32,481 nucleotides of DNA from an uncultured Candidatus Thioglobus sp. (lineage in GTDB: Bacteria; Pseudomonadota; Gammaproteobacteria; PS1; Pseudothioglobaceae), in the NCBI GenBank assembly GCA_905612405.1, contig CAJQRX010000029.1, positions 1-32,481 of the forward strand. The letters are read 5' to 3'. A program made the translations under genes and the position numbers. Shown here piece by piece: positions 14,396-21,721 of this stretch. The notes beneath the pieces are model-generated. The model was not told the origin of the DNA, did no database searches, and saw only the letters and a program-made list of their open reading frames with translations. Positions within the stretch are counted from its first letter, which is position 1. Every line of letters begins with the position of its first letter.

Positions 14396-15343
14396 CTATA
14401 TATTTTGATTAGTTTTACTTATAGCCTCGATATTACCTTCACTTTCCTTACCTACAAATACTCCAAAAGCATTCAAATCTCTTTCAGCAATATAGCGTTT
14501 AAGCATTATCCTACTTGCCTTATCAATTAGAAGTTCAAACGGTATTGAGTCAAAGTCATAAAACTTTCCAGTAGTTATAGATGAGCCATCCTCGATTTTT
14601 GTACGGTAATATATTAGGCTAGTTCTATCATCATTATTTTCAAAAACTGAGAATAGATAATGTTCATTTATGTGAATTTTTTGTTTATAGAGCTTGCCGA
14701 GAAGGCTCTCTTCATCAGTATTTGCACCAAGTCTTGTAGCAGTAGGGAAGCAAAGTAGCCCACTTGTTTGATCTGTAAGGAGAAATATTTTTTTTCTCCA
14801 TTCAATTAATGCCCCAACAAGTATTTTTGTATTTTTATTTTCCATTGCAAGGAGCATTTTCTGTTCAAGTCCAAGATTGACATAATTTCCTCTTAAATAA
14901 ACCAATGGAGTTTGTGGGTTGTACCCAAACTCCCTTACCTTTCCAACAACAATAAGGTGGTCACCACCTTCTATAATATTATCCGTATCACAATCAAACC
15001 AGGCGACTGAGTTAGATATGATAGGGCTTCCTGTAGCTTTTGACTCCCAAGAAATATCTTTAAAACGATCTGTTTCAGGACTTGCAAAAGTGGTTGAAAT
15101 ATGTTGCTGACTTTCAGAGAGAACACTAACTGCAAAATTCCCATCCTTAGAAAATGATTCTATGTTGAAAGATTCCTTATCAATGCATATCAATATTAAT
15201 GGAGGGTCTAACGACACTGACGTGAAAGAGTTTGCAGTAAATCCTATTGGGCTTCCATCTTTATCTTTAGCTGTAACAATAGTTACCCCTGTTGGAAAAG
15301 AGCCAAGTGCTTGTCTTAGGTCCCGTGTTTCTTCTGTTTTCAT
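14396..15343 (-). CDS. Flavin reductase fused to a degenerate Nudix-like domain
   Basis: Residues 1-160 are a HpaC/RutF-type flavin reductase domain (FPTGVTIVTA, 16-25; GFTANSFTSVSLDPPL, 34-49; EGGDHLIVVGKV, 125-136), which reduces FMN or FAD with NAD(P)H for a two-component monooxygenase. The family is usually about 160-190 residues; this protein has 315. Residues about 172-300 read like a Nudix fold: VGALIEWRKKIFLLTDQ, a FP at 199-200, then G206-x5-E212-x7-K220-Q221 where a Nudix box has G-x5-E-x7-R-E. The catalytic REUxEE part is lost, so hydrolysis is unlikely and binding of a nucleotide or flavin is more plausible. It overlaps the upstream hydrolase gene by 4 bp (ATGA). The reductase call is firm; the tail call is moderate. 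Confidence 0.9.
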   Translation of the reverse strand: MKTEETRDLRQALGSFPTGVTIVTAKDKDGSPIGFTANSFTSVSLDPPLILICIDKESFNIESFSKDGNFAVSVLSESQQHISTTFASPETDRFKDISWESKATGSPIISNSVAWFDCDTDNIIEGGDHLIVVGKVREFGYNPQTPLVYLRGNYVNLGLEQKMLLAMENKNTKILVGALIEWRKKIFLLTDQTSGLLCFPTATRLGANTDEESLLGKLYKQKIHINEHYLFSVFENNDDRTSLIYYRTKIEDGSSITTGKFYDFDSIPFELLIDKASRIMLKRYIAERDLNAFGVFVGKESEGNIEAISKTNQNI

Positions 15344-16179
15344 GTAGTAGTATTGTAAGTGTTATTAAGAAAGCATTCTATTATTGGGTTAACTTTTTTT
15401 GCCGATATATATGCCATCATATGTGCTTCACCTTCAATGGACTCGCTAGAGCCGTTTGGCGTTTCTTGAGCCATTTGTTCAGACATTAGTGAAGTAGAAT
15501 TAGGGTCTTCACTCCCAGTTAAGTATAAAACAGGTGGTTGTAAGTTTGAGAGATTATTTACAAAAACTCGATCAGATGTTGCAAACAAATAGTAAGCCTC
15601 TGAATAAGCTTTTGGTGAGGTGTTTTTAAGCCAGCCTTGAACATTATTAATCTTAAGTAAATCATAAGGTCTGGTTTTATTTTGAAACCACCTCTCAAGT
15701 GTTTGATTAATATTAGGTATTTGTTGAGAGTTTAAGACATCTTTAGCCCTCATAATTACATCATCTTGCGCTTTTTTAGTTCTTTTAAAGACAATATTTA
15801 TGGGAATGAGTGTGTCAACTTTTTCAGGATATCTTAATGCAAATGCAACTGCAATAAGCGCTCCCATTGAGTGTCCAATTATAGAAAAGTTTGAGACCCC
15901 TATCTCATTAACAAGATTGTACAGTTGGCTAATATAGTCTTCTAGGGTGAGTTTATCCTTTTTGAGTAAGCTTTGTCCATGACCTAAAAAGTCATAAGTT
16001 ATTACGCGATAATTTTTTGAAAAATGTTCGATTTGAGGTTGCCATATTTCTCCACACATTCCAACGCCATGAATAAAAATTAATGTAGCTGGAGCATCTC
16101 CAAAAGCTTTATAGGCAGTACCATCTTTATCAAAAAAAAAGGGCGTATCTGAATAATTGATTACTTCAAGGTCTTCCAC
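15340..16179 (-). CDS. Alpha/beta-fold hydrolase
   Basis: This 279-residue hydrolase is the first gene of the five-gene catabolic operon. It has the oxyanion strand FIHGVGMCGEIW (35-46), DFLGHGQS (63-70), the nucleophile Ser104 in GHSMGA, an acid candidate in SEDPNS (about 233-238) and the histidine in GEAHMMA (about 256). The fold covers esterases, lactonases, C-C bond hydrolases and RutD-like enzymes. In this context it could open a lactone or ester before or after oxygenation, but that is inference. The start is GTG at 16179, since an in-frame stop lies two codons upstream and the next ATG would remove the oxyanion loop. It overlaps the flavin reductase gene by 4 bp. Confidence 0.9.
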   Translation of the reverse strand: MEDLEVINYSDTPFFFDKDGTAYKAFGDAPATLIFIHGVGMCGEIWQPQIEHFSKNYRVITYDFLGHGQSLLKKDKLTLEDYISQLYNLVNEIGVSNFSIIGHSMGALIAVAFALRYPEKVDTLIPINIVFKRTKKAQDDVIMRAKDVLNSQQIPNINQTLERWFQNKTRPYDLLKINNVQGWLKNTSPKAYSEAYYLFATSDRVFVNNLSNLQPPVLYLTGSEDPNSTSLMSEQMAQETPNGSSESIEGEAHMMAYISAKKVNPIIECFLNNTYNTTT

Positions 16180-16471
16180 AAGTCAATCCATTAATAAATG
16201 TTTGTAAAATATACTTACAGGGCACACACTTTTTTCTCTCACTGCCTGCCGACTTGAGTAACAAGAAATATAGAGTATTAAATGTTGCATGTCAAGGGAC
16301 AAATATATGCGATTTTTTTAAGAATATGTCTTATTATTTAAAAAAAATTACTTATTATCTAAAAAAATGATTAAAAAACGGTAATTTAACTATTTTTATA
16401 CATAAAAACATCGTTATTAATTAAAAAATAGCTAAAAATAGCTAATTTTGATGAAAATTAATGTATTTATA
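16180..16471. other. AT-rich intergenic region upstream of the catabolic operon
   Basis: This 292-bp gap holds the promoter at 16267-16295 and no gene. Upstream of that promoter are two imperfect 18-19-bp direct repeats (starting 16330 and 16351, CTTATTAT then a poly-A run) spaced 21 bp, that is two helical turns. A tandem 10-bp repeat AAAAATAGCT lies at 16424-16443. These could be regulator sites or simple AT slippage. Confidence 0.5.
16267..16301 (-). promoter_or_regulatory. Strong sigma70 promoter and possible operator for the catabolic operon
   Basis: On the minus strand a perfect -35 TTGACA (16295-16290) and a -10 TATATT (16272-16267) are spaced by exactly 17 bp, the best promoter match in the window. 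Transcription would start near 16260, leaving a leader of about 80 nt before the GTG. An inverted repeat TGTC-AAGG-GACA (16290-16301) covers the -35 box and could be a repressor site. The arms are only 4 bp. Confidence 0.75.
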
Positions 16472-17101
16472 TCAAAAAATACCCTTAAATAGTTTTTTTA
16501 ACTCATCATTTATGAAGCAATCTATAACTAGATGGTATCTATCAATATTACTATTATTGCTCACGGAATGATGTTTAGTAACGTCAAGGTAGTAATAGTG
16601 CCCTGTTTTTAGATTGAATAACTTACCTTTTAGATCATTTTCATTTTCATAAAAAGTAAAAATAACATCATTATTGGTCCTGATAGGAATATGAAGCCTA
16701 GCAATCTTTTTATTTTTAATATCATCATCTATATTGTCTGTATGCTTTTTAAGAGTCTTGCCTGCAACTAATTTTGTAAATCGAATTCTCTCAAAATTAC
16801 AAGGCAGCTTAGAGATCATCTCACGTATTGGCTTCATAATAGGTTCGTTGAATAGCGAAGTCCACTGCAATTGAGTTTCAACCTCTACCTTTGTATCTAC
16901 AAAACCTGGTTTAAATATATCTGATGCATTTGAGCCAAATCCATGAAGTGATAATGCTGTCCAAATATTATTGTTTTTATAAGGTGCTATTTGCGATAGT
17001 AGGTGAAAGTTAATTTTATCAAGGTAATCTGCAACACCATTTAAATCATATATGTATGGTTTTATTCGAGTATCTGGACTCGAGATTGTGGATTTATCCA
17101 T
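16472..17101 (-). CDS. Aspartyl/asparaginyl beta-hydroxylase-like 2-oxoglutarate/Fe(II) dioxygenase
   Basis: This 209-residue cytoplasmic protein carries the jelly-roll dioxygenase signature: iron ligands His120 and Asp122 in KKHTDNID, a distal His177 or His178 in KHHSV, and Arg188 for 2-oxoglutarate in DRYHLVIDC. ARLHIPIRTNNDVIFTF (134-150) is the strand typical of this family. The layout resembles the Asp/Asn beta-hydroxylase group that also includes bacterial proline cis-hydroxylases, so a free amino acid or a peptide could be the substrate. It is monocistronic, with AT-rich gaps on both sides and no Shine-Dalgarno sequence. Enzyme class is fairly certain; the substrate is open. Confidence 0.85.
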   Translation of the reverse strand: MDKSTISSPDTRIKPYIYDLNGVADYLDKINFHLLSQIAPYKNNNIWTALSLHGFGSNASDIFKPGFVDTKVEVETQLQWTSLFNEPIMKPIREMISKLPCNFERIRFTKLVAGKTLKKHTDNIDDDIKNKKIARLHIPIRTNNDVIFTFYENENDLKGKLFNLKTGHYYYLDVTKHHSVSNNSNIDRYHLVIDCFINDELKKLFKGIF

Positions 17102-17258
17102 GTATTAATTTGAATATTAGATTAGTCATAAATTAAATTTAAAACCTAACTTTATATGATGAAAAGTCTCAATTATTTTCTCCATTTAATCATAGTTCGA
17201 TAAAGAGCAGCTAACTAGACTAGGGTTAACTTTAAGGGTTATTAGAATAAGAATAGAA

Positions 17259-17945
17259 TTAAATCAAACAAGTAACTGACAATGTTTTAAAAAAAAGTTC
17301 CTCTGATTCATTGAATAAATTTTCAGATTTTGAGTTTTTATATTCTCTATTTACCTCCTTTATTCTCTCGGGAGATATCCTTAAACGCGTCCTTTTTTGA
17401 ACACAAGCACAAGTTTTAGTGTTAATACTACTATTAATTTCATCTTTGTTTGAAGGATCAACCCCTAATGATGACAATAAAGACATTACTTCAGTTGAAA
17501 TAGGTTTCAAAGGATTTTTTTCTAGACCACATACCAGGTTTGCAAAAAAATGCCCACCTTCTTCTACAATTTCTGCTACTTTTTCTTCTACAATTTCTGC
17601 TACTTTTTCTTCTACAATTTCTTCTACTTTTTCTTCTACTTTTTCTGCTACTTTTTCTGCTACTTTTTCTTCTACTTTTTCTTCTACTTTTTTATAATTC
17701 TCAATAATTGAAGCTATTCCAAATTTTTCACCAAATAAATACCATGCTTGGATCGCGAAAATAGGATTTGCTGAGTAGAGGTAGTTTTTAAACCCAGCAT
17801 CATAAGAAGCAGCACATTTTGTCGCATCACTGAGAGAAAGAGTAAGGTCAGCATTACATTTACTTAGCTCTAAACTGATACTGTTATCCCCAATAGAAGG
17901 TTGAGAGAAAAGTATTATTAGAAATATGAGGACTATTTTTCTCAT
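17259..17945 (-). CDS. Hypothetical secreted protein with a VEEK tetrapeptide-repeat helix
   Basis: I do not recognise this 228-residue protein. A signal peptide (about 1-19, MRKIVLIFLIILFSQPSIG) is followed by a small domain with Cys30 and Cys44. Next come a hydrophobic segment NPIFAIQAWYLFGE (60-73) and a 44-residue run of four-residue repeats V-E/A-E-K/I (86-129). A C-terminal domain has four more cysteines (139, 179, 181, 226). The repeat run places Lys and Glu at i/i+4 spacing, as in single alpha-helices or coiled coils, so it probably acts as a stiff rod between two cysteine-bearing domains. It is encoded by 12-bp tandem repeats, so its length can change without a frameshift. Surface or periplasmic placement is inferred. 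Confidence 0.75.
   Translation of the reverse strand: MRKIVLIFLIILFSQPSIGDNSISLELSKCNADLTLSLSDATKCAASYDAGFKNYLYSANPIFAIQAWYLFGEKFGIASIIENYKKVEEKVEEKVAEKVAEKVEEKVEEIVEEKVAEIVEEKVAEIVEEGGHFFANLVCGLEKNPLKPISTEVMSLLSSLGVDPSNKDEINSSINTKTCACVQKRTRLRISPERIKEVNREYKNSKSENLFNESEELFFKTLSVTCLI
17556..17687 (-). repeat. 12-bp minisatellite encoding VEEK/VAEK/IVEE repeats
   Basis: Ten full 12-bp units (17568-17687) plus a partial one are tandem copies of TTTTTCTTCTAC on the + strand, with variants TTTTTCTGCTAC and AATTTCTGCTAC. Variant units alternate in a 24-bp higher-order pattern at the left end. The unit is a multiple of three, so slippage adds or removes four residues in frame. Confidence 0.95.
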
Positions 17946-17968
17946 AGTTTTAGTTTATTTTGAACCAT

Positions 17969-18004
17969 GGGAGAATTCTACCCTTGCAATTATTAAAAGA
18001 ACAA
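17969..18004 (-). promoter_or_regulatory. Putative promoter and palindrome for the VEEK-repeat gene
   Basis: On the minus strand TTGTTC (18004-17999) and TAGAAT (17980-17975) are separated by 18 bp. The -10 lies inside a near palindrome GGGAGAATTCTACCC (17969-17983, 13 of 15 positions symmetric), which could be an operator. Confidence 0.35.
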
Positions 18005-18193
18005 GTTTTGATATTGCTTTTTTAAGCCAAATAATTTTTTTAGATAAAACAAGTCTAATTAATGAACAAGAGTTCAATCCAATAATAGTTCGATTATAAC
18101 AACATTCCCCAGTTACATAATTTGCTAATAATTGATATTCAATCTATATGGATTTTATGCCATATTTTTTTTGTGTCCTGTAACATTTTACAA

Positions 18194-18556
18194 ATGAAAA
18201 ACTTTACAGTTACTTATTATGTAGAAAATCATGAAGAGGTGGATTTTGTTACATATGATTTTGATGCAGAAAATTTAGAGTCATTAGAACTTCAACTTCA
18301 ACAAGGTGAAGGGATTTCTCAAAGATGGTGGAAACATTTCTACACTCAACACTTAGCACCTGATCAAACGACTAGTCTTAATGATATTACTGATTGGGGT
18401 TATTTTTATATTGAAGACACAGATGGTAATGAGGTGTTTTGCAACAATGATGAGTATCTTGAACTACTTCTTAAAGATAAACAAACATTTATTAATAAGT
18501 TAATAAAGAAGAATATAACAAATCCAGTAGTCGTTCATCAAAGTAAGAAGAGTTAA
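18194..18556 (+). CDS. Hypothetical small acidic protein
   Basis: This is a 120-residue soluble protein of no family I recognise. The frame opens at 18122 with TTG, but the first 24 residues are hydrophobic and unlike the rest. The ATG at 18194 (MKNFTVTYYVENHEE) is the better start. It is rich in Asp, Glu, Trp and Tyr (RWWKHFY, about 44-50; DWGYFYIEDTDGNEVF, about 67-82) and ends in a basic tail. Alternating strands suggest an alpha/beta fold. It is the first of three same-strand orphan genes in an accessory stretch, separated by 78 nt from the next. No Shine-Dalgarno sequence is visible. Confidence 0.6.
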   Translation: MKNFTVTYYVENHEEVDFVTYDFDAENLESLELQLQQGEGISQRWWKHFYTQHLAPDQTTSLNDITDWGYFYIEDTDGNEVFCNNDEYLELLLKDKQTFINKLIKKNITNPVVVHQSKKS

Positions 18557-18634
18557 ATCCAGTTGTATTTTTGACCGATTGATTTTGTATGTTGGAGACA
18601 CTTAACAAAGTCATATTTATAATAAAATAAAATT

Positions 18635-19057
18635 ATGATGAATAACTTTGTTAAACATTCAATAATTAGATTTGTTACAAAAGAATTGACAACGATTATT
18701 GATGACATTAAATCATCAACCTATAATTTTACTAAAGTCAGAACAAACTTTTCAGATAATTCCTTCAATATTACTAGAGTTGACGGAATGTTTGAAGGAT
18801 CACTACATATGTTGATTCACAGGATTATGTACGTAGAAAAACACTATCTGAGGTTTTTAGATTCTGAAATGATGAATGAAGTTGAAGAAGATCCACATTC
18901 AAGATGGTGGGTTAATCATGGTCATGAGGATTATGAAAAGATTGATGAATTCTTATCTGATATTTATTATGATTGTATCTTCAATGTTTATGAGTACCTA
19001 ACTAATGACATTAGTAGTGATGTCAAGAATGAATTTAAAGATTATTTAAATCTTTAA
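18635..19057 (+). CDS. Hypothetical helical protein
   Basis: This is a 140-residue protein I cannot assign. It looks mainly helical and cytoplasmic, with no signal peptide or membrane segment. The middle holds SLHMLIHRIMYVEKHYLRFLD (about 56-76), where two histidines spaced like metal or helix-packing residues occur, and RWWVNHGHEDYEKIDEFL (about 89-106). Two adjacent ATGs at 18635 and 18638 are equivalent starts. A TATAAT lies at 18618-18623, only 11 nt before the ATG, and no Shine-Dalgarno is present. It shares the RWW motif with its upstream neighbour, which I take as chance. Confidence 0.6.
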   Translation: MMNNFVKHSIIRFVTKELTTIIDDIKSSTYNFTKVRTNFSDNSFNITRVDGMFEGSLHMLIHRIMYVEKHYLRFLDSEMMNEVEEDPHSRWWVNHGHEDYEKIDEFLSDIYYDCIFNVYEYLTNDISSDVKNEFKDYLNL

Positions 19058-19086
19058 TTCAAAGTAAATTTACATTTAGATACAAT
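19058..19086 (+). promoter_or_regulatory. Putative promoter for the DUF4174-like gene
   Basis: TTCAAA (19058-19063) and TACAAT (19081-19086) are spaced 17 bp, and the ATG begins at 19092. Transcription would start at or next to the start codon, giving a leaderless or near-leaderless message. Confidence 0.4.
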
Positions 19087-19091
19087 AAGTA

Positions 19092-19517
19092 ATGAAGAAC
19101 AGGATAAAAGTATTGTGCCTATTGTTAACTTTATTAATGTTTCCAATCATGAGTAATTCAAGTGTAAAAATAAATTTAGAAGAATATATTAATTCATTTT
19201 CATGGGACAAAAGAATAGTCCTCTTTATTACAAAAGATATTTATTTCATTAATGAAACTGACGATTTTTTTAAAACAAATAGTTGTGAAAATGAAGAAAG
19301 AAATTTGAAGTACATTAGAATTGTTGGAGATGATATTAATGAATACATTATTCCAGATAGATATAAGAATAAATATGGACTTTGGTTAATTGGTTATGAT
19401 GGTGGAGATAAATCATATTCAAATGACACCTCATTACTAAAAGAAATTCACAATATTATTGATACAATGACAATAAGAAAGAGTGAAATGACTGAACAAA
19501 ATGAAAAATGTAATTAA
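19092..19517 (+). CDS. DUF4174-type secreted protein
   Basis: This is a 141-residue protein with a signal peptide (about 1-22, MKNRIKVLCLLLTLLMFPIM then SNSS). The mature part starts with an SWDKRIVLFIT strand (about 37-47) and ends with LWLIGYDGGDKS (97-108) and IIDTMTIRKSEM (122-133). These match the hallmark end of DUF4174 proteins, where LiGKDG..K and ID.MPMR..EM recur. That family has a thioredoxin-like look but no known activity and no CxxC; the two cysteines here are far apart. It is the third same-strand orphan in the accessory stretch, followed by the first grpE-core repeat region. Confidence 0.7.
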   Translation: MKNRIKVLCLLLTLLMFPIMSNSSVKINLEEYINSFSWDKRIVLFITKDIYFINETDDFFKTNSCENEERNLKYIRIVGDDINEYIIPDRYKNKYGLWLIGYDGGDKSYSNDTSLLKEIHNIIDTMTIRKSEMTEQNEKCN

Positions 19518-19547
19518 GGTTTTGTTACAGGATTACTTTTACAAATG

Positions 19548-19719
19548 TTTTACAAATGATTTTTGACCTATTGGAGTAGGGTTTGAGGGGGTCGGTCGGT
19601 TATTGTTCGACTATGACTCAATGGTCTTAAACCTCCTTAGTAAAGTAAATTATTGTTAGACACGTTGCTTGCAAGCCATTGTTCCTTCTGTATGGCGGGT
19701 ACTGCGATATAAACACTTT
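19548..19719. repeat. Intergenic repeat, copy 1
   Basis: This is the diverged partner of 20345-20524. Shared blocks in order are a 34-bp left block (19548-19581, 30/34 matches, containing a CCTA...TAGG hairpin), the 19-bp grpE-like core (19599-19617, 17/19), a TTGC..GCAA inverted repeat (about 19665) and a 20-bp right block (19700-19719, 17/20). An extra TTTTACAAATG precedes it in tandem (19537-19547). Potential pairing of GGTTTGAG with CTTAAACC encloses the core. The rest of the 296-bp gap 19518-19813 shows nothing else. Confidence 0.85.
19599..19617. other. Attachment-site-like core, diverged grpE 3' end copy
   Basis: GTTATTGTTCGACTATGAC matches the grpE 3' end (21178-21196) at 17 of 19 positions in the same orientation. 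It is the most distant and most diverged of the three copies, as expected for the oldest insertion in a stepwise series. Confidence 0.55.
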
Positions 19720-19813
19720 GTTTGACAGTTTCACAATCACAATTAATCATTTTTACTAAATATTATTATAAAAGAGTAGAATTATCTTTTTAGAATAGTA
19801 AGGGGATAAAATT

Positions 19814-20305
19814 ATGGAAGAGACTGAAGCACAAGCAAATAAACGAAGAATTCACGAACTTGAGCGTATTGCATTAGGCGAGGTTGAGGTAGATAAAGTT
19901 GAAGTTGAATTTGAAGTGGATAAAAAAGTAAGTGATGTACCTCAAGAAGTTTTAATGACAAAATGCCCATATTGTGCAGAAGAAATTCAAGGCGCTGCTA
20001 TTAAGTGTAAGCATTGTGGTGAAAGGATAACTCAGCCTTCATCATCTCAACAATTTAACTCAATTCCACAAGATGTTCTATTTAATGCAACTATGACGAA
20101 TTGTAATAAAATCGAGGATCCACAAAAATATGGTGGTTGGTCAAAACATATGATTTGGTGGTCACTTACAGGGATTATAGGAATTATTATTGCCTTTATA
20201 GGAATGACGAATAGTAAAGGCAGTGTTGTAAAAAATGCGCAGGCAACACAACTTCTTGCTTTGTCGGTAATATTCCAATTGATAACTATGATGATATGGC
20301 AATAA
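19814..20305 (+). CDS. Zinc-ribbon membrane protein
   Basis: This is a 163-residue protein with a charged N-terminal helix (1-40), a double-CxxC zinc ribbon (Cys51, Cys54, Cys65, Cys68 in CPYCAEEIQ...CKHCGE) and two membrane helices near the C-terminus (about 113-131 and 145-162). The ribbon type (CPyCAEeI...aikCkhCG) is common in small membrane proteins of unknown function. A short motif is repeated around it: PQEVLMTKC (43-51) and PQDVLFNATMTNC (85-97). A strong Shine-Dalgarno (AAGGGGA, about 8 nt upstream) marks the start, unlike its leaderless-looking neighbours. It is the only gene of the 795-bp unit between the first two grpE-core copies. Confidence 0.8.
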   Translation: MEETEAQANKRRIHELERIALGEVEVDKVEVEFEVDKKVSDVPQEVLMTKCPYCAEEIQGAAIKCKHCGERITQPSSSQQFNSIPQDVLFNATMTNCNKIEDPQKYGGWSKHMIWWSLTGIIGIIIAFIGMTNSKGSVVKNAQATQLLALSVIFQLITMMIWQ

Positions 20306-20344
20306 CTAAATCAGTTTAAACACCGATCTGACAACATATCTTAG

Positions 20345-20524
20345 TTTTACAAATGATTTTAACCCTATTGAAGTAGGGCTTCTAGAGGGGTCAGTTATTG
20401 TACGACTATCACGATTAGGTCTGTAACCCCGACGCAATAGGGTTTTTCTCATCCACACTTCATACACACTTTTGCGGCAAACCCTTATGCCACCCAGAAC
20501 TAGTTACTGCGACATACGCACTTT
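20345..20524. repeat. Intergenic repeat, copy 2
   Basis: This is the partner of 19548-19719, with the same block order: left block 20345-20378, core 20394-20412, inverted TTTGC/GCAAA (20471-20481) and right block 20505-20524. The copy adds a 10-bp perfect inverted repeat (AACCCTATTG at 20361-20370, CAATAGGGTT at 20435-20444) and inner arms GGGGTCAG/CTGTAACCCC, so the core would sit at the tip of a long imperfect hairpin. The local CCCTA...TAGGG hairpin could also end transcription of the zinc-ribbon gene. The surrounding gap 20306-20604 holds no gene. Confidence 0.85.
20394..20412. other. Attachment-site-like core identical to the grpE 3' end
   Basis: GTTATTGTACGACTATCAC is an exact 19-bp match, same orientation, to 21178-21196, which encodes the last five residues and stop of GrpE. 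The two copies bracket a 784-bp unit containing one gene (20605-20982). A 19-bp identity is not expected by chance in 32 kb. Confidence 0.7.
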
Positions 20525-20535
20525 CATACACGCTT
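20450..20535 (+). repeat. 11-bp iterons at the left end of the second unit
   Basis: Four directly repeated 11-mers of the CATACACACTT type occur: CATCCACACTT (20450-20460), CATACACACTT (20461-20471), CATACGCACTT (20513-20523) and CATACACGCTT (20525-20535). The first two are in tandem and the last two are 12 bp apart. Spacing near one helical turn fits cooperative protein binding. Confidence 0.8.
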
Positions 20536-20604
20536 TTCATTTTATTCCGTAGTGAAGGAATAGAACGGATTGTTAGTGTTTCTGACCACCTTAGATTGAA
20601 GCAA

Positions 20605-20982
20605 CTACTTAACGTAGTCACAAACGAAATTTAAGAAAATTGCACCTCCACTATCAGGGTCTGGATATATCCAGTCATAAGGACCATTCTCTACTTCTTG
20701 TGTACCTCTACCCATCGGTTGCTGATAGAAAATATATGATAAACCTTTATAACGATTAACTCCACAATCACCTTGTTTATATGCTTTGGTACTCATAACT
20801 CCACTTTCAGTAGGTTTGGATCTATCGCCTAATTCCCACCAATAAATATATCCGTTATGTTTTTTGATTGTATCTTTTTCTATGTAATAAGTATTTGAAC
20901 TATTTTCGAAAAAAAATGTCCATTCTCCATATGAGTTAACCGAAATCAGCATTGAGAATAGAAGTATGAGTAGTTTTTTCAT
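20605..20982 (-). CDS. Secreted protein resembling surface-adhesin E-like proteins
   Basis: This is a 125-residue protein with a clear signal peptide (MKKLLILLFSMLISVNSYG, cleaved near residue 19). The mature part begins EWTFFFENSSNTYYIEKDTI and continues with YIYWWELGDRSKP, SGVMSTKAYKQGDCG and a C-terminal FVCDY. The single disulfide implied by the two cysteines, and the 'W...Y(I/V)(D/E)..tI...g.v..W.l.d.....S.k....dC' progression, fit the adhesin-E-like domain found in many small periplasmic or surface proteins. True adhesion is unproven. It is the only gene of the 784-bp unit bounded by exact grpE-core copies and is transcribed toward the repeat. Two small inverted repeats precede it (21002-21016 TAGAAT/ATTCTA; about 21020-21031 TGAAG/CTTCA), possibly operators. 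Confidence 0.75.
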   Translation of the reverse strand: MKKLLILLFSMLISVNSYGEWTFFFENSSNTYYIEKDTIKKHNGYIYWWELGDRSKPTESGVMSTKAYKQGDCGVNRYKGLSYIFYQQPMGRGTQEVENGPYDWIYPDPDSGGAIFLNFVCDYVK

Positions 20983-21112
20983 AATAGAGTCATTTTTGAA
21001 CTAGAATTTGATTCTACTACTGAAGTTCTTCAAAAGTATAGTACTTGACTGAGAATTTACGAGTCAGAATAGGAGGGTTTAAGACACCCGACCAAGACAT
21101 ACAGATAGTCTA

Positions 21113-21138
21113 TTCTCATACACACTTCATACACACTC
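21113..21138 (+). repeat. 11-bp iterons at the right end of the second unit
   Basis: CATACACACTT (21117-21127) and CATACACACTC (21128-21138) form a tandem pair. The 25 bp 21113-21137 match 20446-20470 at 24 positions, so the same iteron block lies inside both ends of the unit, in direct orientation. Confidence 0.85.
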
Positions 21139-21177
21139 CGAAAAAGTGTAGTTAAATCAATGACTTAAAAGTGTCTT

Positions 21178-21196
21178 GTTATTGTACGACTATCAC
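21178..21196. other. Attachment-site-like core within the grpE 3' end
   Basis: The final five codons and stop of grpE (Val-Ile-Val-Val-Gln-stop, read on the minus strand) form the native copy of the 19-bp repeat. Integration here would leave grpE intact because the incoming copy restores the same codons. Confidence 0.6.
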
Positions 21197-21721
21197 CAGT
21201 GCTGGGCGGACTAATCGTCCATTTAAAGTAAATCCAACTTGGATAACCTCTAATACAGTATTTGGTGTTTTGTCTGGCATTGGAGCCATAGTGACTGCCT
21301 CATGAAGCTCTGGATTGAATTTTTCATCAACAGGATTTATGGCCTCTACTCCAAATTTTTCAAGAGTTGACATAAAAACTTTATTTGTAAGCTCAATTCC
21401 TTCAATTGTATTTGCTAGGGTTGCATTTTCATCCATTGCTAGCTTAAGTCCCATTGAAAGAGAGTCGTTGACCTCTAATAGGGCTTTAACAAAACCATCA
21501 AGTGCATATTTATGGGCATTTTCAAGATCTTTTGATGTACGTCTTTTAAGGTTTTCCATCTCGGCTTGGGAGCGTAAAAGTTTGTCCCAATTATCTTTCG
21601 CAGACTGCTGCGCTTCTAGCAGCTGAGTCGCTAAATCTTCATTTTTGTTATCATCAAGTAAATCTTCTTGAACCTCTTTAGAGGTATCATCTTGAGTTTT
21701 TTGTTCTGTCTTTTTTGTCAT
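21179..21721 (-). CDS. grpE: GrpE, nucleotide exchange factor of DnaK
   Basis: GrpE releases ADP from DnaK to complete its chaperone cycle. The 180-residue protein has a disordered acidic N-terminus (1-30), a long dimerising helix (about 30-90, with [15 protein letters not shown]) and the C-terminal beta domain. The beta domain carries the signature [21 protein letters not shown] followed by [21 protein letters not shown]. The ending is intact and normal for the family, although its last codons are duplicated downstream. It is divergent from nadK across 65 bp, a conserved gammaproteobacterial arrangement. A heat-shock-like promoter is visible upstream. No convincing terminator follows the stop, only a 5-bp ACACT/AGTGT hairpin. 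Confidence 0.97.

Follow-up and report, generated by a model that had tools for sequence, protein, structure and literature searches.

CIMEs are described, in the part of the source available, as integrase-less segments that are bounded by att sites and occur in tandem at a gene end (PMC5704250). The fGI-2 of Methylophilaceae, as far as the accessible text describes it, has direct repeats of the last ~20 nt of tRNA-Lys and segments of 330 bp to 42 kb (PMC10872708), and for Actinomarinales the available passages report tRNA-fragment repeats at inserted cassettes (PMC7771536). Additive islands were defined in work on Alteromonas (PMC5217437). They can be recognized by repeats of the target end, left by repeated insertion at one site. 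Integron cassettes can also form integrase-less arrays, or CALIN, which according to the excerpt available can be mobilized in trans (PMC11389934). Thus, the logic of accretion is known from CIMEs and from additive islands at tRNAs, at least within the accessible parts of these accounts. Regarding grpE as an integration site or as the target of a genomic island, the match obtained in the partly accessible literature concerned SCCmec only. One-gene units with att arms are not described in the titles or abstract openings of the literature matches listed, which come largely from outside subscription journals.

The window studied here is a stretch of 32,481 bp, i.e., one whole contig of an assembly of an uncultured Candidatus Thioglobus sp. 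(1.09 Mb in 58 contigs, 67.8% complete). Behind its grpE gene lie two intervals that are probably non-autonomous, one-gene integrative units, accreted stepwise and moved by an integrase acting in trans. The original prediction, an integrase-less cassette array grown by stepwise insertion at grpE, is supported by empty and variable sites in relatives, by a 19-mer that is not scattered over the genome and by the lack of an integrase in the regions searched. It can be refined by the presence of arm-type repeats in the units, of like units at other genes and of integrase-bearing relatives at tRNA genes.

Like CIMEs as described in the available text, the grpE units are integrase-less, have att-like ends and lie in tandem at a gene end, and units 1 and 2 retain both an attL-like and an attR-like border. 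They differ from that description in their size of about 0.57-2.4 kb, in carrying one gene each (two in G018), in their occurrence at several protein genes and in the lack of any sign of a past ICE or IME in an integrase search of 28 regions. The grpE array also displays the repeated target ends by which additive islands are recognized. However, additive islands target tRNA genes, whereas the units here use the ends of protein genes and have matched arms, and the accessible accounts of these islands are silent on paired arm repeats and on the pairing of integrase-less with integrase-bearing elements. With CALIN, as partly accessible to us, the array shares the property of being a cassette array without an integrase. 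No attC-like hairpin was found, however: the single-strand folding of core copies 2 and 3 is weak (z -1.7 and -1.1) and no Rfam match was found in the window, and structured RNA or attC at the cores was rejected on these grounds; nor was an integron integrase found in or near the array in the 28 regions. A dif-like core as in Xer-using elements (IMEX) was not seen either, the dif sites found being unlike the cores. One-gene units with att arms at protein-gene ends look like a new form of the known accretion.

The core repeat and its units in the window

The features of the array and its surroundings are listed here by position in the window; G and L numbers are our handles for genomes and loci.

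15340-16179, minus strand: conserved alpha/beta hydrolase, far border of the hotspot (kept in relatives)
16180-19598, no strand: older distal part of the variable region, without a core copy at up to 4 mismatches (ORFs, alignment)
19092-19517, plus strand: DUF4174 cargo, 141 aa (domain search; DNA comparison with G028)
19537-19558, minus strand: left tandem repeat of the next, older segment, CATTTGTAAAA twice (perfect tandem 11-bp repeat, 11/11)
19599-19617, plus strand: core copy 3 with two mismatches, at the far end of unit 2 (pattern search; the junction in G009 lies here)
19599-20393, no strand: unit 2 of 795 bp with a single gene and decayed tandem repeats (arm analysis)
19814-20305, plus strand: unit 2 cargo, zinc-ribbon protein with a hydrophobic C-terminal part, 163 aa (PF13248)
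20394-20412, plus strand: core copy 2, exact, border between units 1 and 2 (pattern search)
20394-21177, no strand: unit 1 of 784 bp with a single gene and tandem repeats close to either end (repeat and arm analysis)
20446-20470, minus strand: right-end tandem repeat of unit 1, core-proximal pair (repeat family D8)
20512-20536, minus strand: right-end tandem repeat of unit 1, inner pair (by eye)
20605-20982, minus strand: unit 1 cargo, Adhesin_E-like secreted protein, 125 aa (PF16747, E 9e-17)
21116-21137, minus strand: left tandem repeat of unit 1, AGTGTGTATGA twice (perfect tandem 11-bp repeat, 11/11)
21178-21196, plus strand: core copy 1, the grpE stop and the last five codons (pattern search)
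21179-21721, minus strand: grpE, with its 3' end as the target site (ORF; GrpE match in relatives)

The core, GTTATTGTACGACTATCAC at 21178-21196, comprises the stop codon of grpE (21179-21181), its five last codons and one base beyond. As originally predicted from the letters of the DNA, its three copies all lie in the plus orientation at the positions and with the mismatches listed, and they are spaced by 795 and 784 bp, with one gene in each interval (zinc-ribbon on the plus and Adhesin_E on the minus strand, respectively). Three matches of the 19-bp core occurred in 0 of 100 dinucleotide shuffles. At up to two mismatches, the three copies are the sole places of the core in the whole, 67.8% complete assembly, and the objection that the 19-mer could be a generic scattered repeat thus falls away. 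The farthest copy is indeed the most diverged, which fits an order with the newest unit next to grpE, three copies being too few to test an age gradient. Against accretion speaks that no further core copy was found beyond 19599, even when up to 4 mismatches were allowed. No tRNA genes were found in the window.

Core copies flank units 1 and 2 on both sides. Arm repeats are present at both ends of unit 1, where a 25-bp repeat is located near either end (20446-20470/21113-21137); in unit 2, they are decayed, which is a point against the main reading. A 38-bp repeat adjoins core copies 2 and 3 (19547-19584/20344-20381). The match of the unit 2 cargo to PF13248 (E 1.2e-5, 25.1 bits) is under the curated cut-off of 27. 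A defence function of the unit cargo was considered and rejected, since only one weak PADLOC match, to part of a profile, was obtained (E 0.006). Elsewhere in the variable region, the gene for a 228-aa protein contains a 12-bp tandem repeat in ten overlapping copies (17535-17704), which encodes Glu/Val/Lys-rich repeats.

Occupied and empty sites in relatives

GrpE was matched in 50 of the 58 genomes searched, the window's own genome included, and the DNA downstream of grpE was compared at 28 loci of relatives. Together with the window, this yielded 29 sequences, 16 of which contain the border hydrolase, 339 to 5521 bp away from the stop codon of grpE; there was no match in the other 13, several of which are short. 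In G009, GrpE is 96% identical to that of the window and grpE can be aligned through its stop, but exactly the 784- and 795-bp units are absent. Its core joins the sequence found behind copy 3 in the window, and past the core the two are 96.8% identical over 1443 bp, with 96-97% identity in the distal part. The last 60 bp of grpE are identical in G008 and G027, and right at the stop, ~568 bp carrying one gene are inserted in G008; beyond this insertion, the two sequences are 92% identical. The empty and variable sites to be looked for according to the original prediction thus exist, in G009 and in G008 versus G027. G024 also lacks both units, together with the DUF4174 gene, and keeps the next 936 bp at 96%, and G028 keeps the distal genes. 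Against the main reading, however, the first 35 bp after grpE in G024 correspond neither to copy 3 nor to a core junction with the window, and the first 53 bp in G028 are not core-to-core with the window.

The left flanks of core copies 2 and 3 resemble the sequence directly behind grpE in G008, G009 and G023. By eye, several of the left flanks behind grpE could pair as a hairpin followed by T runs; the units may supply a replacement transcription terminator for the target gene. The grpE junction in G008 (L049) reads GTTGTT-CAATAA-AACAAC, with two 6-bp arms in inverted orientation that flank a 6-bp centre, resembling the minimal core site of a tyrosine recombinase.

When 83 genomes of the family were searched for the arm with up to 3 mismatches, matches were found in 14, some of them plainly by chance. 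Of the 20 places matched, 14 were inspected; besides grpE, the full arm occurs among these behind maf, an ABC permease gene and a gene for a 437-aa protein and in an array in G021. Judged by eye from 125-bp flanks, with one more locus per gene running off its contig, the 3' end of the permease gene carries the arm at 8 of 23 readable loci, is empty, with the next gene following at once, at 13 and has other insertions at 2; for maf, the corresponding numbers are 3, 20 and 1 of 24. In the window's own genome, the permease gene is followed by a one-gene unit of 2.2 kb that is closed by a second core copy with 1 mismatch, and in G002 by a different one-gene unit of 850 bp that ends in a core copy with 4 mismatches, the distal genes being shared. 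At the right end of the maf units in G008 and G015, no core copy was found, which speaks against the main reading.

A refined arm model, the 18 sequences of which were taken from the same sites, gave 21 matches at E <1e-5, in 12 of 29 genomes of the genus and in 0 of 54 others. Models R1 and R2 were built from arms that they later recovered; with R1, G021:C163, G027:C31 and second copies in G018 and G023 were gained at E <1e-4, and with R2 a second copy in G002. Beyond the genus, G086 had a match to R2 (E 3e-5). A short pattern of the arm, allowing one mismatch, proved too loose and was abandoned, as 46 of 58 genomes matched and a reversed control did so as often. The class-B arm had 0 matches in viral contigs, and the 4 matches of a 17-mer core in them, all inside ORFs of unrelated DNA, were taken as chance. 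On G021:C150, which may be a chimeric contig, MORN-like and zinc-ribbon genes form an array that is located away from grpE and yet contains an exact grpE-type core of 18 bp (L109/L172).

Judging from DNA identities, cargo has apparently been transferred both between species and from site to site. The DUF4174 segment is 96.2% identical over 472 bp between the window's genome and G028, the backbones of which are 76-78% identical; for the gene next to it, the identity is 88.3% over 385 bp. Furthermore, a 63-aa gene behind grpE in G023 recurs in the ABC-permease arrays of G002, G010 and G028, with 92, 92 and 88% DNA identity, respectively.

Arm-type repeats and integrase elements

When at least 9/11 matching positions and a location within 130 bp of the stop are required, 15 of 23 left ends contain a tandem 11-bp repeat, versus 1 of 48 control ends (Fisher p 7e-9, which is optimistic since the left ends were partly picked by their arm). 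In thirteen of these 15 ends, the repeat begins 40-49 bp after the stop codon, those of grpE_G024 and abc_G006 lying at another distance. The remaining 8 left ends lack a repeat of 9/11, which counts against the main reading. The sequence of the repeat varies from element to element. In the 12 elements with both ends, the left repeat matches its own right end at a mean of 9.83 of 11 positions, versus 8.39 for the right ends of others (p 5e-5), and this test is weakened by the use of a wrong left repeat for L099. For the 8 integrase-less elements alone, the values are 9.75 and 8.63 (p 0.0013). Tandem repeats matched to an element's own end are presumably what the arm-type sites of an integrase would look like. 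Against this, the repeats at the two ends of the grpE unit of G008 differ.

Integrases with a MATIQKV-like N-terminus constitute a family of tyrosine integrases, the intact members of which are 333-349 aa long; they were found at 10 loci in 9 genomes of the genus and at a single locus in another genus of the same bacterial family. According to ARAGORN, a tRNA gene adjoins 10 of 13 integrase loci, the remaining three integrases being located at the end of a contig or close to it. The integrase mostly follows the 3' end of the tRNA; in the tRNA-Pro cases L239 and L246, integrase and tRNA gene are on opposite strands, so that the 5' end of the tRNA is the target. A second core was found in 4 of the 10 loci tested and gives core-to-core lengths of about 4.6, 5.7, 6.8 and 7.6 kb. 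Tycheposons are marine elements that carry cargo, with a tyrosine recombinase, at tRNA genes. They resemble the integrase-bearing elements described here in having a tyrosine integrase next to a tRNA gene (10 of 13 loci), whereas the grpE units have neither a recombinase nor a tRNA target. Relatives of the integrase in viral contigs are up to 42% identical.

A tandem 11- or 12-bp repeat is located at most 75 bp upstream of the start in 14 of 14 integrases. Ten of these are from the genus, L101 is from the other genus of the family, and L237, L240 and L245, the latter filed as an Epsilonproteobacteria MAG, are from other public records; the integrases of L100 and L103 are disrupted or truncated. 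A similar tandem repeat is present at the right end of L096, L099 and L100 and as a single copy in L098. The identity between repeats correlates with that between integrase residues 1-60 (rho 0.48, p 0.0005) and 61-150 (rho 0.49, p 0.001) and shows no such correlation with residues 151-260, the catalytic part (rho -0.09, p 0.67); this covariation may stem partly from shared ancestry and physical linkage. The repeats of the units resemble those of the MATIQKV-type integrases but are identical to none of the integrase repeats seen, and this speaks against the main reading. A search of the islands L092-L108 and L111, which carry integrases, yielded no arm of the grpE type with fewer than 9/28 or 6/25 mismatches. 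By eye, the P4-type integrases of the genus (L102, L104-L107) also show upstream tandem repeats of 11-12 bp, an observation that goes against the main reading; the one in L106 contains an Arm-DNA-bind_3 domain.

At a tRNA-His gene, an integrase element and an integrase-less unit lie in tandem (L099), an arrangement relevant to the mobilization of CIMEs by another element. Beyond the far tRNA-His core of the integrase element, the second unit has the same core, arm and tandem repeat, with 89.9% identity over 99 bp, and a cargo gene of 497 aa occupies the position expected for the integrase start. Residues 12-49 of this cargo are 74% identical to the cargo of the permease unit in the window's genome. 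In L098, the second unit has 88.9% of 63 bp of core and arm in common with the integrase element and a 174-aa gene in place of the integrase. Hence, there are units that share the arms of an integrase element and yet have no integrase. Beyond the cores of the second units, no integrase was matched in 3.9 kb (L099) or 6.4 kb (L098), and no third core copy was identified in either locus. In the second unit of L098, 30 of 31 bases of the tandem-repeat block are inverted relative to the first unit.

For the units themselves, a profile built from 18 tyrosine recombinases of these genomes was run against six-frame segments of at least 60 aa from 28 regions (grpE, ABC, maf and others). None matched at E 0.01, whilst 12 of 12 integrase-bearing regions in the same file, serving as positive control, did. 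The 28 regions include several that are not known to carry the arm, e.g., grpE of G004, G006, G014, G003, G019, G001 and G026; five of them stop at a contig edge (grpE of G010 and G017, ABC of G008 and G017, and maf of G017), and the permease region of G028 was covered to 8.6 kb. Within these regions, the array is thus integrase-less as had been claimed, and a recombinase adjoining a grpE core was not found. In the window's own genome (68% complete), just two tyrosine recombinases were found, of 295 and 318 aa and on other contigs, which are taken, by their size, for XerC and XerD; this counts against the main reading.

Probable accretion and competing explanations

Each unit would be a one-gene segment without an integrase, with a core derived from the grpE 3' end at both borders and, close to these, 11-bp arm-type sites. 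The tyrosine integrase acting in trans would be of the type present on the tRNA-gene elements of 4.6-7.6 kb in the same group of bacteria, and a circular unit would recombine with the core at the end of grpE. Thereby, grpE would retain an intact end, and the old core copy and any older units would be pushed outward; repeated rounds would lead to an array with the newest unit next to grpE. Core copies, the exact absence of the units from a relative and occupied and empty sites at three genes are observed, as are matched arms, integrase-free regions, the tandem units of L098 and L099 and near-identical cargo in a diverged relative. From these we infer circular intermediates, action in trans and the choice of integrase for the grpE units.

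Alternatively, the units could be decayed remnants of larger, integrase-bearing islands that lost their integrase after integration, i.e., a fossil, CIME-like accretion without any traffic of single genes. Such an origin is described for CIMEs in the accessible part of the source (PMC5704250), and it would suit the decay of unit 2 and the distal part and the mismatched end repeats of the G008 grpE unit. It is difficult to reconcile, however, with arms that match at both ends in units at grpE and the ABC permease, with close relatives that differ by a one-gene insertion of 0.57 kb and with the recurrence of cargo at more than one site and, with 96% identity, in a diverged species; moreover, no integrase remnant was found by the profile search at E 0.01. 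Altogether, this explanation is unlikely. Homologous exchange via the flanking core genes, which would swap the region behind grpE and carry the repeats along by chance, is disfavoured and very improbable: gene content does vary behind a conserved border and transfer of whole segments would likewise yield blocks of high identity, but the exact core copies, the constant distance of the 11-bp repeats, the occurrence of the same arms behind several genes and the left-right matching are left unexplained. Cassettes driven by an integron integrase at attC or by XerCD at dif-like cores are hardly credible: one-gene units added at one end do recall integron cassettes and the two recombinases found in the own genome are of Xer size, but core copies 2 and 3 fold weakly, Rfam gave no match in the window and one dif-like site was found in each of 6 genomes searched, unlike the cores (CGTATAATTTATATTATGTTAAAT in 3 of the 4 genomes of this genus searched).

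Assuming stepwise accretion by an integrase in trans, a broader scheme may tentatively be proposed, which we consider possible rather than probable. It would be a two-part cassette economy without integrons, in which the integrase elements at tRNA genes serve a pool of integrase-free one-gene units at the ends of protein genes. The 11-bp repeats would constitute an interchangeable address code that is read by the variable N-terminus of the integrase, the catalytic part remaining constant, and each integrase would move only the cassettes with its code. If confirmed, the arrays would offer a natural test of joint change in the arm-binding parts of integrases and the arm sites.

Streamlined ocean bacteria have few obvious mobile elements, yet many differing small genes of unknown function. 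If confirmed, the units described here would provide a concrete mechanism, with recognisable ends, for the traffic of single genes in these bacteria, and one-gene units behind grpE and a few other core genes would represent a stripped-down gene trade in SUP05-type bacteria. Because the units encode no recombinase, they are missed by searches for recombinase genes. A AGTAGAAT-like motif is found in a leader common to the cargo genes of different units (L034, L049, L050, L109 and window 21000-21025), and a second leader, TCACACATCAAACGAAATTTGGACTTTAGTTC, in several permease and maf units and also behind the integrase in L098; possibly, these shared leaders are promoters that travel with the units.
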